Notes under the pieces: model-generated
The model's input: the letters and a program-made list of their open reading frames with translations, nothing else
Told to the model about the DNA's origin: nothing
Database searches by the model: none
Shown: positions 1-4,725 of the stretch, piece by piece
Layout: every line of letters begins with the position of its first letter
Position numbering within the stretch: position 1 is the stretch's first letter
From: a bacterium
GTDB lineage: Bacteria > Electryoneota > JAOADG01
Direction of reading: 5' to 3'
DNA: 33,661 bases
NCBI GenBank assembly: GCA_030247525.1
Contig: JAOTSC010000015.1
Location: forward strand, 1 to 33,661
Made by a program: the position numbers and the translations under genes

Positions 1-1172
1 AGGGGGTTAGCCGGGATGCGGCGATTTCTTATCTCCGTTCGCAAAACCTCCTGCCCATTCAAATCGAGGAGGAACGCGATACACCTCGGGTTACGATGGC
101 ACGCGATGGTGAACCTGAAGTACGAACACGAAAGAAGATAGGCAATAAAGAGATTATTGACTTTACTAAACAGTTGACGACTCTACTCCGGGCGGGTGTA
201 CCAATTCTTCCTTCTCTCGATACGATTTCTGGACAAACCGATAACCAGAATTTTTATGAAGCGATGCAGCAGGTTCAAAAAGATTTGGCAAGCGGCAGTG
301 ATTTCTCGACTGCGCTTGGAAAACACCCACACATCTTTAGTGATTTGTATGTTAACAGCGTACGGGCAGGGGAAGCCGGCGGTGTGCTCGATACGATCAT
401 GGCACGACTCTCCGATGTTTTAGCACGTGACGCCGACATTCAAAAGAAAGTAAAATCGGCATTGCGATATCCTTTGATCGTAACGATTGGCATGACGGTA
501 GCATTCATCGTGTTGCTCATTTTTGTAGTTCCGAAATTTTCGAAGATGTTCGTGGATATGAAACTTGAACTGCCGTTGCCAACGAAAGTCATTATCGCCC
601 TCTCACAATTCTTCTTAGGATACTGGTGGTTACTCCTTGCATTGGGAGTTGTGGTTTATTTTGGTTACAAGCAGCTTATTAAAAGTCAGACGATACAGAA
701 GCAAATTGATGGCTATTTACTTCAAATTCCGGTGGTGGGTAACCTTCTTCTAAAATCATCGATGAGCCGGTTTAGCCGGATGTTTGCTACTTTGAACAAA
801 GCAGGTCTACCAATTATCCAATCGTTACAAGTGGTTGCGCGTACTATTCCCAATGCAGTCATCCGGGATGAACTAATGGAGGTATCGAAAGGTATTGAAC
901 GTGGCCGTGGAATTGCCATGTCGATGAAAGATTCACCGGTCTTTCCGATGATGGTAGTCAAAATGATTCAAGTGGGGGAGGAGTCAGGAGCGATCGATGA
1001 AATGCTCCTACACATCTCAGATTACTTCGATGAAGAAGTCAGCGCTTCGGTGGAAGCGATTACGGACATGATTGAACCAATGTTGACCGTGATGATGGGT
1101 GGGATGGTGCTGGTACTCGCTTTAGCGATTTTCCTTCCAATGTGGAATTTAACTGATTTAGCGGGGCAATAA
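1..1172 (+). CDS. pilC: Type IV pilus/type II secretion inner-membrane platform protein (PilC/GspF family), 5' end outside window
   Basis: This is the inner-membrane platform protein on which the pilus assembly ATPases act. An ATG lies at 96, but the frame is open back to position 3 and reads GVSRDAAISYLRSQNLLPIQ, which matches the N-terminal region of this family. The true start is therefore upstream of the window and 96 is an internal Met. Counting from that Met, two T2SF domains are visible at about residues 23-147 and 225-347. The first contains TTLLRAGVPILPSLD and AGEAGGVLD, the second TLNKAGLPIIQSLQ and GEESGAIDEML, the usual duplicated pattern. Hydrophobic segments lie near residues 125-148, 175-190 and 334-353. 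Pilin genes follow 216 bases downstream, so this is the last gene of an assembly block before the structural genes. The choice between the type IV pilus and type II secretion name is inference; the pilins favour the pilus. Confidence 0.93.
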   Translation, partial: GVSRDAAISYLRSQNLLPIQIEEERDTPRVTMARDGEPEVRTRKKIGNKEIIDFTKQLTTLLRAGVPILPSLDTISGQTDNQNFYEAMQQVQKDLASGSDFSTALGKHPHIFSDLYVNSVRAGEAGGVLDTIMARLSDVLARDADIQKKVKSALRYPLIVTIGMTVAFIVLLIFVVPKFSKMFVDMKLELPLPTKVIIALSQFFLGYWWLLLALGVVVYFGYKQLIKSQTIQKQIDGYLLQIPVVGNLLLKSSMSRFSRMFATLNKAGLPIIQSLQVVARTIPNAVIRDELMEVSKGIERGRGIAMSMKDSPVFPMMVVKMIQVGEESGAIDEMLLHISDYFDEEVSASVEAITDMIEPMLTVMMGGMVLVLALAIFLPMWNLTDLAGQ

Positions 1173-1213: not shown

Positions 1214-1316
1214 CTTGGGCAAATGATTCTATCGAATAATCGAAATGTGTGTACACTGCACTAATATAAAATATTATTACTAAAAAGGTTACCGCCGGTA
1301 TTTGTTAACAATTGTT

Positions 1317-1332
1317 TGGCAAGGTATTTGCA
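1317..1332 (+). promoter_or_regulatory. Sigma-54 (-24/-12) promoter of the pilin genes
   Basis: TGGCAAGGTATTTGCA matches the sigma-54 consensus TGGCACGNNNNTTGCW at every fixed position except one (A for C at position 6). The GG and GC elements have the invariant spacing. The predicted start, about 12 bases downstream, would give a leader of roughly 45 bases before the pilin ATG at 1388. Major pilin genes are classically driven by RpoN with an enhancer-binding activator such as PilR. No PilR-type activator gene is in the window. Confidence 0.75.
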
Positions 1333-1387
1333 ATTCTTCCCGGTAGTTATCAATTGGATACAATCATCTCAACCGATAGGAGAACAA

Positions 1388-1732
1388 ATGCGTAAGTTCA
1401 CGAATTCCAAGGGTTTCACCCTTATCGAATTAATCATGGTTATTGTGATCATCGGTATTCTCGCTGCTGTAGCAGTACCGAAGTTCGTCAATCTCCAAAC
1501 CAAAGCTAATCAAGCAGCATGCGATTCCAACGTGGGTGCTATCAACTCCGCGATTGCAATCCAGTATGCGAATCAACTGACTGGGGCAGCGCCTGATCCA
1601 GCATGGATGGACGGTATTGATGCAATCGGGGCAGTGCAAGCGACTTGGTTTGCTTCCGGTACGGTTCCGACATGCCCGCTTGCGGTTGCTTATGTCATCA
1701 CCAATGGCGTTTGCGCAAAGCATGTCCACTAA
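1388..1732 (+). CDS. Type IV pilin-like prepilin 1
   Basis: Short prepilin of 114 aa. The ATG at 1388 follows a good ribosome site (TAGGAGAA), and the leader MRKFTNSKG is followed by the prepilin peptidase site G^FTLIE with Glu at +5. The N-terminal helix (FTLIELIMVIVIIGILAAVAVPK, described by residues 10-32) is the canonical assembly helix with a Pro. The frame is open upstream to 1316, but that extension would cover the sigma-54 promoter. The globular part is small, about 80 aa, with three cysteines; two are shared with the next gene and could form the pilin disulfide. It is the first gene after the sigma-54 promoter and is followed by a hairpin, so it is probably the major pilin, made in excess. 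It is a paralogue of the gene at 1834. Confidence 0.93.
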   Translation: MRKFTNSKGFTLIELIMVIVIIGILAAVAVPKFVNLQTKANQAACDSNVGAINSAIAIQYANQLTGAAPDPAWMDGIDAIGAVQATWFASGTVPTCPLAVAYVITNGVCAKHVH

Positions 1733-1833: not shown

Positions 1834-2175
1834 ATGAGATTTCGCACATCAAACGGATTTACACTGATTGAGATCATCATGGTGATTGTGATAATTGGAA
1901 TATTAGTCGCAACAGCAGTTCCCAAATATGTTCATTTGCAGGCGGAGGCAAACCAGTCGGTGTGTAATGAAGCGGTACACCAAATCGAGTCGGCGATTGC
2001 CATCCAGTATGCTAATCAGGCGGCAGGTACTGCCCCCGATCCGAACTGGATGGAGCACTTCGACGATATCTCAGCGGTGCAAGCAACATGGTTCGCTAAC
2101 AATGCGGTTCCGCATTGCCCTGTGAATGAACCATATGTCGTGAACAATGGTCAAATCGTCCGTCATAACCATTAG
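1834..2175 (+). CDS. Type IV pilin-like prepilin 2 (tandem paralogue of prepilin 1)
   Basis: Prepilin of 113 aa with leader MRFRTSNG and cleavage site G^FTLIE. It shares long identical blocks with the preceding pilin, including IMVIVIIGIL, SAIAIQYANQ, APDP and AVQATWFA, so the two arose by tandem duplication. Differences are concentrated in the C-terminal third. The third cysteine of prepilin 1 (GVCAKHVH) is replaced (GQIVRHNH), while the other two are kept, leaving one candidate disulfide pair. The ribosome site is weak compared with that of prepilin 1. It lies downstream of a hairpin and is probably made at a lower level, perhaps as a second or alternative pilus subunit. Function as a pilin is sure by sequence class; its role relative to prepilin 1 is inference. 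Confidence 0.92.
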   Translation: MRFRTSNGFTLIEIIMVIVIIGILVATAVPKYVHLQAEANQSVCNEAVHQIESAIAIQYANQAAGTAPDPNWMEHFDDISAVQATWFANNAVPHCPVNEPYVVNNGQIVRHNH

Positions 2176-2260: not shown

Positions 2261-3034
2261 ATGAAGAAGCTCTGGAACAAAGGATTTAGTTTAGTCGAGT
2301 TAATCGTAGTGATTACGGTTACCGGAATCCTCGTGGGCGTCGCTGCCATCAAGTATAACTCCAATAGCGAGTATAAAGTTAACCTTGCCGCTCGAAAAAT
2401 CATTGCTGATATCCGCTACATTCAATCATTCGCGATGAAGAACGGAACGGAAGTCGATTTTTACATTGTGAATTCTCCAGTTCCTCCGAGTGGATGCTTT
2501 ATCGCGACAGCGGCATACGGCTCGGCTTGGGAGCCGCATGTGAACACTTTACGAAAGTTCCGCGACAATTACCTGTCTGGTACAACGATGGGCGACCGGT
2601 TCATCGTTCAGTATCAAACCTACGGGCCCAAAATCGCCACGTTTATTAATAAGAATCCAGTTTGGAAACCGATTGTGCGAGGTGCTCTAACACCTCTCGC
2701 GTATGTTTTAGAGATGGTTTTTGGTAAACCGGCTATTGCAGGCGGATGGGGCAGTAGCCCGGGAATTCCCGGAGAGCCCAACACTTATTATGCGAAAATC
2801 TCATCCTCGGGGGCATACTTAAAGAATCCGGATACCAATGCTGATTTTATCGTAAAACTTCCTGATGGGGTAGCGATAACCTCGGCGACTACTTCGATTA
2901 GTTTCAGTAGCCGTGGTATGCCAACTGGTGGTCCGTTCAATTCGAGTGGCAACAACAAGACGTTGTTAATACTGAACAGCACAATGTCGATCGTAATGTC
3001 GCGAGTTACCGGAACATGTTGGATCGAATCGTGA
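2261..3034 (+). CDS. GspH-like minor pseudopilin with an internal CFI-box domain
   Basis: Protein of 257 aa. Leader MKKLWNKG, cleavage site G^FSLVE, then a hydrophobic helix and the GspH-type segment AARKIIADIRYIQSFAMKNG (about residues 43-62), typical of minor pseudopilins that sit at the fibre tip. At residues 78-152 the fold is interrupted by CFIATAAYGS followed by EPHV, LRKFRD and a hydrophobic stretch ending in TPLAYVL. This is the CFI-box module usually found at the C-terminus of secreted proteins. A Gly/Pro-rich linker (about 157-173) leads back to a beta-rich region (176-257) with SISFSSRGMPTGG, the normal end of GspH-like proteins. The module therefore appears inserted between strands. 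The 3' end overlaps the next gene by 19 bases, so it is part of a minor pilin operon. Two cysteines lie at residues 79 and 253. Confidence 0.88.
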   Translation: MKKLWNKGFSLVELIVVITVTGILVGVAAIKYNSNSEYKVNLAARKIIADIRYIQSFAMKNGTEVDFYIVNSPVPPSGCFIATAAYGSAWEPHVNTLRKFRDNYLSGTTMGDRFIVQYQTYGPKIATFINKNPVWKPIVRGALTPLAYVLEMVFGKPAIAGGWGSSPGIPGEPNTYYAKISSSGAYLKNPDTNADFIVKLPDGVAITSATTSISFSSRGMPTGGPFNSSGNNKTLLILNSTMSIVMSRVTGTCWIES

Positions 3035-3441
3035 AAACATTACGATCCAATAGCTCTGCGGGTGTTAGTTTGCTGGAAACTGTTTTAGCAATGGTAATCA
3101 TGGCAATCGCATTTCCCGCGCTATCGAATCTGTTTGCCGGGTTAACTGTTACTTCGCAACGTCCAGCGTACATCACTACCGCGGAGATGCTGTGTGTTTC
3201 CGAAGCGGAGGTACTCGTCGCCGATCATCGTTCAAGGGATTCAGTTAATTACGGCTACAACAATCTTCTGAATGCAAGATATCCCGACCTAGCGATACCC
3301 GGGTACACCAATTATTCTCGACAGATTCGTATCGTAGAAAGTTCCGGTAACACCGTCAAAACCGCGACAGTGACAATTATTGGACCGTTTAATGTACGGG
3401 CGGCGATTGTAGTTCGTTTTTACCGGTATACCCAACCATGA
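3016..3441 (+). CDS. Minor pseudopilin (GspI/PilV-like)
   Basis: Protein of 141 aa with a 16-residue leader and the cleavage site G^VSLLE, Glu at +5, followed by the hydrophobic helix TVLAMVIMAIAFPALSNLF. The first mature residue is Val rather than Phe, which is common in GspI/PilV-type minor pilins. The remainder is a small beta-rich domain of about 100 aa ending RAAIVVRFYRY. It starts inside the preceding gene (19-base overlap) and its TGA overlaps the next ATG (ATGA), so translation is coupled. Assignment to GspI/PilV rests on position (H, I, J, K order) and size, since minor pilins diverge strongly outside the N-terminus. Confidence 0.82.
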   Translation: MLDRIVKTLRSNSSAGVSLLETVLAMVIMAIAFPALSNLFAGLTVTSQRPAYITTAEMLCVSEAEVLVADHRSRDSVNYGYNNLLNARYPDLAIPGYTNYSRQIRIVESSGNTVKTATVTIIGPFNVRAAIVVRFYRYTQP

Positions 3442-3995
3442 AACGAAACTTCTTATCCAAGCGAGGGTTGAACCGTGGCTTCTCACTGATGGAGATAATT
3501 CTCGTCATCAGTATTACCAGTTTGATCGCATTGGTAATCTCAAAAATTCTCGAGCAAACCGGTAATATGTATTTTCGGATGATTCGGAATGCCGATGCCA
3601 ACGCACAAATGCAGCAAACGTACTATACAATGATAAGCGATATTCGGGAGTCGGTAGGAGCTGGTAGCGTATCGGCATCGGTGATTGATTTAGATAAGAA
3701 GTACTACTATGACGTGGTTGGAACTTCTTTGTTTGCTCATGTGATTCAACCTTACAATGGAACAACGTATCAGCTTGTTGCAAATAAAATTAATGTCAGT
3801 AATTTTTGGGATCCAATTGAAGATGTTCCTTCAAGTACAACATACAGTTTTGCTATTCCAAGAATCGAGGCCGGGACAGCATGGAACTCCGTTGCTCGCG
3901 GTGGGAACTACATTTACACGGTGACCTTGAAAATCAACGTTAATGGGCAAATCGTGCAGTCTCAGTTTAAGTCTTCTCCAATGGTGGAAAACTAA
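3438..3995 (+). CDS. Minor pseudopilin (GspJ/PilW-like)
   Basis: Protein of 185 aa with leader MKRNFLSKRGLNRG, cleavage G^FSLMEI and the assembly helix ILVISITSLIALVIS. After the helix comes an amphipathic region with MQQTYYTMISDIRESVGAG, the arrangement seen in GspJ/PilW proteins. The start overlaps the previous stop as ATGA. The C-terminal half is beta-rich (TYSFAIPRIEAG, YIYTVTLKINVNG). In type II secretion and type IV pili this subunit forms part of the tip complex with the H/I/K-like subunits. The family call is by N-terminus, size and gene order. Confidence 0.84.
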   Translation: MKRNFLSKRGLNRGFSLMEIILVISITSLIALVISKILEQTGNMYFRMIRNADANAQMQQTYYTMISDIRESVGAGSVSASVIDLDKKYYYDVVGTSLFAHVIQPYNGTTYQLVANKINVSNFWDPIEDVPSSTTYSFAIPRIEAGTAWNSVARGGNYIYTVTLKINVNGQIVQSQFKSSPMVEN

Positions 3996-3997
3996 CA

Positions 3998-4480
3998 ATG
4001 ATACGGCATGTGGGTAACACTCGCGGTATCTCTGTTATCACGGTGTTATTTTTTATTGTAATACTATCGGTCTTTGGCACGACGGTTGTTTCGCAAGTAG
4101 TTCGCCAAAATTTAGTGGCTGCAAATAGTCTAAAAGGTCAACAAGCATATTATGGAGCTCTCAGTGCTTGTGATCGGGCATCCCGTGATATTGTGACTGG
4201 AGTTGTTACTGGAAATACGAATTATGCAGCATACTCAATTGGAAATGTTTCCATTGAACTACTTACAGTTCGATTGACTTACGTTTCACCACCCTATTTT
4301 TTGTTGTCGTTTGACTCGGAACAGGTTTGGAGGATTACCGCACAAACGAGAGTTGGTGACACATACAAACAAGTGGTGATGTACCGGGCACGGAATGCTA
4401 TCGCAGCAAAAGCGGGTTATTGGCCGGCGTATAGAAAGAATCAGGTTCTCTTTGTTACGGAAGAACGGAATTTTCGGTAG
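3998..4480 (+). CDS. PilX/GspK-like minor pilin lacking Glu5
   Basis: Protein of 160 aa. The leader MIRHVGNTRG is followed by G^ISVITVLFFIVILSVFG; the residue at mature position +5 is Thr, not Glu. Absence of Glu5 is the hallmark of the GspK/PilX-type subunit that caps the fibre. Downstream are VAANSLKGQQAYYGALSACDRA, close to the QAxYxAxAG signature of PilX/GspK N-terminal domains, and a C-terminal segment FDSEQVWRITAQTRVGDTYKQVVMYRA, which is the standard ending for pilus PilX proteins. The gene begins two bases after the previous stop. It is shorter than classical GspK (about 300 aa), favouring the PilX side. Confidence 0.82.
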   Translation: MIRHVGNTRGISVITVLFFIVILSVFGTTVVSQVVRQNLVAANSLKGQQAYYGALSACDRASRDIVTGVVTGNTNYAAYSIGNVSIELLTVRLTYVSPPYFLLSFDSEQVWRITAQTRVGDTYKQVVMYRARNAIAAKAGYWPAYRKNQVLFVTEERNFR

Positions 4481-4491
4481 GGAGTTTCTCA

Positions 4492-4725
4492 GTGTTGCTT
4501 AGTCTTGGACTGGTGATATTTATCGTAGCTTTATTGCTATTCTTTGCTCCACGGGTGTTAATCCGTGGAAATGATATTGGGAACCACTCGCTACGAACTG
4601 GGTGGACACCACCGGTTTCACGTATCGTTTACTTTCTGTTTCACTACCGCAAAACGTTTGCTGCTTTGATGATGGTTTTGGCACTTTACCTTTTGGTTAT
4701 CCGAGTCGCCGGAGTCGCTCTGTAA
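4492..4725 (+). CDS. Small two-helix membrane protein
   Basis: A 77-aa protein starting at GTG 4492, eight bases after a GGAG ribosome site and only 11 bases after the PilX-like stop, so probably the last gene of the pilin operon. Two hydrophobic segments are clear: residues 2-20 (LLSLGLVIFIVALLLFFAP) and about 55-74 (FAALMMVLALYLLVIRVAG). Between them is a short polar loop with RGNDIGNHSLRTGWTPP and a basic stretch. I do not recognise a family. The coupling suggests a helper in pilus assembly or anchoring, but this is position only. Confidence 0.7.
   Translation: MLLSLGLVIFIVALLLFFAPRVLIRGNDIGNHSLRTGWTPPVSRIVYFLFHYRKTFAALMMVLALYLLVIRVAGVAL

Follow-up and report, generated by a model that had tools for sequence, protein, structure and literature searches.

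This study identified a complete CFI box within the head of a GspH-like minor pilin from a bacterium of the phylum Electryoneota, with pilin sequence on both sides of the box that is conserved across genera. The gene lies in a window of 33,661 nucleotides, the whole stretch of DNA that was analysed (contig JAOTSC010000015.1 of assembly GCA_030247525.1). We consider the protein to be a modular minor pilin of the GspH/FimU kind, which would be cleaved at its leader and built into a type IV filament, with the four-helix CFI module inserted after the first strand and displayed at or near the tip as a binding (adhesin or docking) module; we put the probability of this reading at roughly 0.55.

A CFI box inside a prepilin

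The CFI box in this pilin is real and far beyond chance: the profile NF041770 (CFI_box_CTERM) was matched from position 1 to 68 of its 69 positions with 81.1 bits (E 3.6e-23; cut-off 40 bits), and the profile search counted a single CFI box in the whole 3.59-Mb assembly. The matched residues, 79-146, fall within the interval 2490-2720 where the original prediction had placed the module, and the pattern CFIATAAYGS..EPHV..LRKFRD that it named is present.

Concerning the host protein, a class III leader, a hydrophobic helix and Glu at +5 characterize it as a type IV prepilin, and the prepilin motif (Pfam N_methyl, above its cut-off) occupies about residues 6-29, ahead of the box. Pfam GspH matches weakly after the box, at residues 198-229 (17.3 bits against a cut-off of 21), and TIGR01708 reaches 30.4 bits, against a cut-off of 80, on the N-terminal part only. 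The protein is thus a prepilin carrying a domain that is not pilus-specific, which is what defines a modular pilin. Since five orthologues and four CFI-less paralogues share a conserved C-terminal part with it, sequence comparison indicates that the pilin head truly resumes after the box, in agreement with the original prediction. The chain continues for about 100 residues beyond the module and does not have the tripartite layout of MYXO-, GlyGly- or PEP-CTERM sorting signals, in which a signature motif is followed by a membrane helix and a terminal basic tail; 179 residues separate the CFI-box Cys from the C-terminus, and no hydrophobic helix follows the box (best 18-residue mean hydropathy 0.66).

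Table 1. Features of the CFI pilin gene and of its neighbours, in positions of the window; residue numbers refer to the CFI pilin.
Feature	Position	Strand	Basis
GspF/PilC-like platform protein	96..1172	+	Pfam T2SSF 4e-60
GspG-like prepilin 1	1316..1732	+	True start probably further in
GspG-like prepilin 2	1834..2175	+	Profile match
Modular minor prepilin with internal CFI box, 257 aa	2261..3034	+	NF041770, Pfam; 5 intact orthologues
Class III leader peptide MKKLWNKG	2261..2284	+	TIGR02532 and N_methyl over cut-off; predicted cleavage before Phe9
N-terminal helix alpha1, residues 11-60	2291..2440	+	AlphaFold2 helices 11-32 and 37-60, moderate confidence
Probable first strand EVDFYIV and linker NSPVPPSG ahead of the CFI box	2450..2494	+	Orthologue alignment; strand presumed from GspH-like layout
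CFI box, residues 79-146	2495..2698	+	NF041770, 81.1 bits
Predicted four-helix fold of the module	2498..2722	+	AlphaFold2, residues 80-86, 92-105, 109-131, 135-154
Conserved A-x-A (AIA, residues 158-160), end of module	2732..2740	+	7/7 family members against 3/121 other CFI proteins
Gly-rich linker returning to the pilin head	2741..2779	+	Sequence; poly-Gly longer in orthologues
GspH-like C-terminal part of the pilin head	2780..3031	+	Weak Pfam GspH; conserved in orthologues and CFI-less paralogues
PilV-like (I-type) minor prepilin	3016..3441	+	Weak matches; gene order recurs in orthologous loci
PilW-like (J-type) minor prepilin	3438..3995	+	Profile match; gene order
PilX/GspK-like (K-type) minor pilin	3998..4480	+	PilX_N and GspK weak matches

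The first strand, a region where AlphaFold2 confidence was low, was placed from the GspH-like layout, and the linker between it and the box is Gly-rich in several orthologues, as revealed by the alignment. AlphaFold2, run on the CFI pilin with a 53-row alignment, predicted the module as four helices with a block-mean pLDDT of 91-97 over residues 81-150, and left the linkers unstructured and the head at a pLDDT of about 40-57, so that strand positions are approximate. Prediction of the full protein, which had been proposed as a check on the insertion, accordingly delivered a compact four-helix module, but a head of too low confidence for strand placement. For a canonical C-terminal CFI box, the same four helices were predicted, followed by a long helix covering the membrane segment. 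Since the box stands inside the pilin without this usual membrane helix, the result suggests a four-helix core able to stand alone as a unit. It had also been reasoned that an internal module must fold with its ends close together; the Gly-rich linkers beside it weaken this need.

No PDB chain better than E 0.7 was returned by a profile search with the module, and the fold search against solved and viral structures gave nothing at E below 0.001, the best viral match being a phage auto-processing chaperone protein (E 0.37). The A-x-A in Table 1, found at the same place in L003-L008, lies directly after a hydrophobic helix that is preceded by basic residues, and resembles a signal-peptidase site.

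Relatives of the CFI pilin and their operons

Intact, full-length orthologues occur in five genomes of another family of the phylum, each representing a different genus; they aligned over residues 5-256 with 33-43% identity, and all five carry the CFI box at the same position, usually flanked by Gly-rich linkers. A sixth relative (G028 C30, L198:4706-5572) carries a frame-shift and runs on into the following PilV-like gene, through either decay or an assembly error. This is the sole split copy; the possibility that the second half is a separate gene found no example among the intact orthologues, which rule out both an assembly artefact and the misreading of two genes as a single one. Among the matches listed from a search of 386 genomes with the family profile, pilins with a CFI box were confined to two families of this phylum. 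The GTDB collection, when scanned, yielded at least 79 CFI loci, with one pilin among the matches listed (L057, matching the G031 copy). An earlier genome scan with a single sequence as query had given no matches, and GspH-like matches in another family of the phylum (f3/f8) turned out to be GspG-type pilins.

The motif of the relatives in the other family (L003-L008), and so of five of the six intact pilins, has a second Cys (CFVATVCYG and similar), and that of the CFI pilin is the canonical CFIATAAYG. In a tree of the flanks alone, CFI carriers and the other pilins fell on two sides of one branch (support 100/98), and the hypothesis that the CFI boxes of these pilins arose once was not rejected (p-AU 0.91). 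From these trees, one acquisition of the box by the pilin family is likely; the CFI-domain tree is poorly resolved.

Four paralogues in the same type of operon (G002 L197:2611-3279 and 3349-4218; G028 L196:2696-3556 and 3827-4537) have flanks that match the family profile, e.g., 5-80 at 8e-17 and 180-261 at 2e-16. At the CFI-box site they carry a Cys-bracketed insert rich in Gly, His, Arg and Asp (e.g., CGGCED...HHCDESC), with the common core RGHGYGYGHxHH..C, which is possibly metal-binding. Because the flanks are homologous and the insert in the same place is a different one, the CFI box is, as judged from these alignments, a true insertion at an exchangeable site of the pilin. These sister pilins without the box rule out the suspicion that some known minor pilin family might normally include the CFI region.

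The CFI pilin gene is the first of an H-I-J-K-like cluster, here and in relatives, with the subunit assignments taken from weak matches. The order CFI pilin - I - J - X is repeated across genera, with GspG-like genes mostly upstream, and the same pilin gene order is found where the insert is of the Cys-bracketed kind. PilT is encoded in the genome, and the cluster could serve a secretion-type pseudopilus, not pili. A search for PilY1 gave no match and likewise none in control genomes, and this absence is hence uninformative. Between the two GspG-like genes, a terminator-like hairpin (1767-1796) could limit expression of the downstream pilins; the scan that detected it found 2 such hairpins against 3.3 expected, which is in the chance range.

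In the proposed mechanism, based on pilin biology, prepilin peptidase would cleave the CFI prepilin after Gly8, and the mature pilin would enter a type IV filament via its N-terminal helix, with the complete and presumably independently folding four-helix module occupying the loop after the first strand of the head. As the gene heads the H-I-J-K-like minor pilin cluster, the pilin would most likely join the priming/tip complex, and the module would be displayed at or near the fibre tip, where it might bind a putative ligand as an adhesin or docking module, by analogy with ComZ and Streptococcus PilB. The earlier idea that the module is presented outside the cell at a fibre tip is plausible; an H-type subunit may also sit below the tip, within the fibre.

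A wider proposal, which we hold tentatively and at somewhat less than even odds, is that H-type minor pilins of this phylum use the loop behind their first strand as a dedicated cargo site. The loop would exchange unrelated modules, namely the CFI box in one lineage and Cys-bracketed His/Gly/Asp-rich, perhaps metal-binding, inserts in another, and the CFI box would be a compartment-independent binding module, not a sorting tag. If this is true, a fibre tip can be re-tooled by exchanging a single loop while the pilin and the operon stay unchanged. As the paralogues show in outline, a single loop of a minor pilin seems able to accommodate very different inserts, and such loop-swapping would be a simple route for fibres to new tip functions.

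CFI boxes in other proteins and rival explanations

In total, 132 distinct CFI domains were compared, a sample biased by the searches behind it. C-terminal placement, taken as no more than 125 residues from the Cys to the end of the protein, was found in 114 of them, and a hydrophobic helix follows the domain in 86 of these 114, often together with a basic tail. The other 18 comprise seven from this pilin family (six pilins and the broken copy), nine with a membrane helix and a further part, and two weak matches. The count of internal against terminal placement that had been called for hence singles out the pilin family, which, besides the two weak matches, is the only one among the 132 with an internal box and no subsequent membrane helix.

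The hosts include a secreted-type protease and Ig-domain proteins, and zinc-ribbon-like proteins that look cytoplasmic; a plasmid-borne cold-shock protein (L209:2153-2731), which contains a zinc-finger-like stretch and ends in a CFI box, has neither signal peptide nor membrane helix. CFI boxes therefore do not look confined to secreted proteins, and in the description of the module as normally C-terminal in secreted proteins the position stood, while "secreted" was too narrow. Since the boxes are also terminal in cytoplasmic-looking proteins, this distribution argues for a general contact or binding module rather than a dedicated export or anchoring tag.

Several further observations were made on CFI genes. 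A CFI gene lies one gene downstream of pilQ (TIGR02515, over the cut-off) in L059, L068, L071, L084 and L107, i.e., 5 of the 79 canonical loci among the matches listed, and gspD lies downstream of the CFI gene in L126; CFI proteins are recurrently linked to type IV filament machines, mostly in related taxa. The CFI protein of a viral contig (L137:1564-2412) resembles along its length that of a 5-kb Acinetobacter plasmid (L210:1333-2184), with a similar N-terminus and an NIQHNLK stretch before the box in both, and the two are perhaps a mobile-element family. None of the papers searched mentions the CFI box or its CFIATAAYG motif; the box is a widespread domain whose motif is strictly conserved, and as far as could be found, its function and structure have not been described.

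An alternative to a binding role is that the CFI box serves for sorting or processing in the manner of MYXO-CTERM, with its invariant Cys, membrane helix and Arg-rich tail, and that the pilin has co-opted it and would undergo cleavage or modification at either the Cys or the A-x-A. The Cys, present in 46 of 47 profile-found domains, would fit such a signal, as would the membrane helix and frequent basic tail after most terminal boxes, and the A-x-A followed by Gly in all seven pilins against 3 of 121 other CFI proteins. However, the module of the pilin has neither helix nor tail after it, boxes are terminal even in proteins that lack both a signal peptide and a membrane helix, the cold-shock protein among them, and the membrane orientation of a pilin should be unsuited to signal peptidase cleavage at the A-x-A. 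Furthermore, no shared partner gene was found near the 79 CFI loci among the matches listed, a distant processing enzyme being possible. We regard this alternative as improbable; the suggestion that the domain processes, anchors or cross-links its host likewise finds no support, given the missing helix and tail and the cytoplasmic-looking hosts.

The module might otherwise be a structural spacer or assembly element, governing how the priming complex packs or holding the subunit fixed at the tip, with no outside ligand, which we consider a serious though less probable possibility. GspK, which remains at the pseudopilus tip and has an inserted alpha-domain whose function is unclear (PMC8179133), agrees with this, and the low complexity of the paralogue inserts implies that bulk, not a specific surface, might matter; against it, the pilins retain the key polar residues of the box (Cys, LR..RD), a sign that bulk is not all that counts. 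A recent accident, in which the module would be a fragment that transposition or mis-assembly brought into a decaying gene, is scarcely credible: the frame-shifted, fused G028 C30 copy and the 305-contig assembly of the source genome would suit it, but five intact orthologues in five genera and independent assemblies contradict it, and the identity of the orthologues to the CFI pilin is as high in the box (32-44%) as in the flanks (26-45%). Display of the CFI module as a binding module at or near the fibre tip is the reading we prefer, and the CFI pilin offers a small tractable system for the CFI box, in which the module can be in, out or swapped.

Comparison with known systems

Modular pilins as a kind are already known, with 264 architectures (PMC8179133). 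As far as checked, three features are new here: the CFI box as the module, its placement behind the first strand in a pilin of the H type, and the different inserts that this loop takes in paralogues. Like CFI-box-CTERM proteins (NF041770), the CFI pilin has the complete domain with its key residues, although the domain is terminal in the former and internal in the latter, without subsequent membrane helix or basic tail. As in the MYXO-CTERM/myxosortase system (PMC11980579), the Cys of terminal CFI boxes is invariant and a membrane helix with a basic tail is often present, whereas the CFI box is a folded domain of 69 residues and its pilin version has no helix and tail.

Among modular pilins, PilB and PilC of Streptococcus sanguinis have an extra domain fused at the C-end through a short loop (PMC8179133, PMC9934059), whereas the extra domain of the CFI pilin lies inside the head and is a CFI box. 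In type II secretion, GspK has a domain inserted between strands 3 and 4, as cited in PMC8179133 and PMC6561018, and is similar to the CFI pilin in bearing an all-helical domain inserted in a minor pseudopilin head; on the same sources, it differs as a K subunit with the insertion at strands 3-4, while the CFI pilin is an H-type subunit whose domain has its own database family. ComZ of Thermus thermophilus, a proposed tip DNA receptor, has a domain inserted before the last strand and resembles the CFI pilin in that a domain is inserted into the beta-sheet of a minor pilin (PMC6561018). Its insert is a beta-solenoid before the last strand and that of the CFI pilin a predicted four-helix module after the first; the two are likened here by layout.
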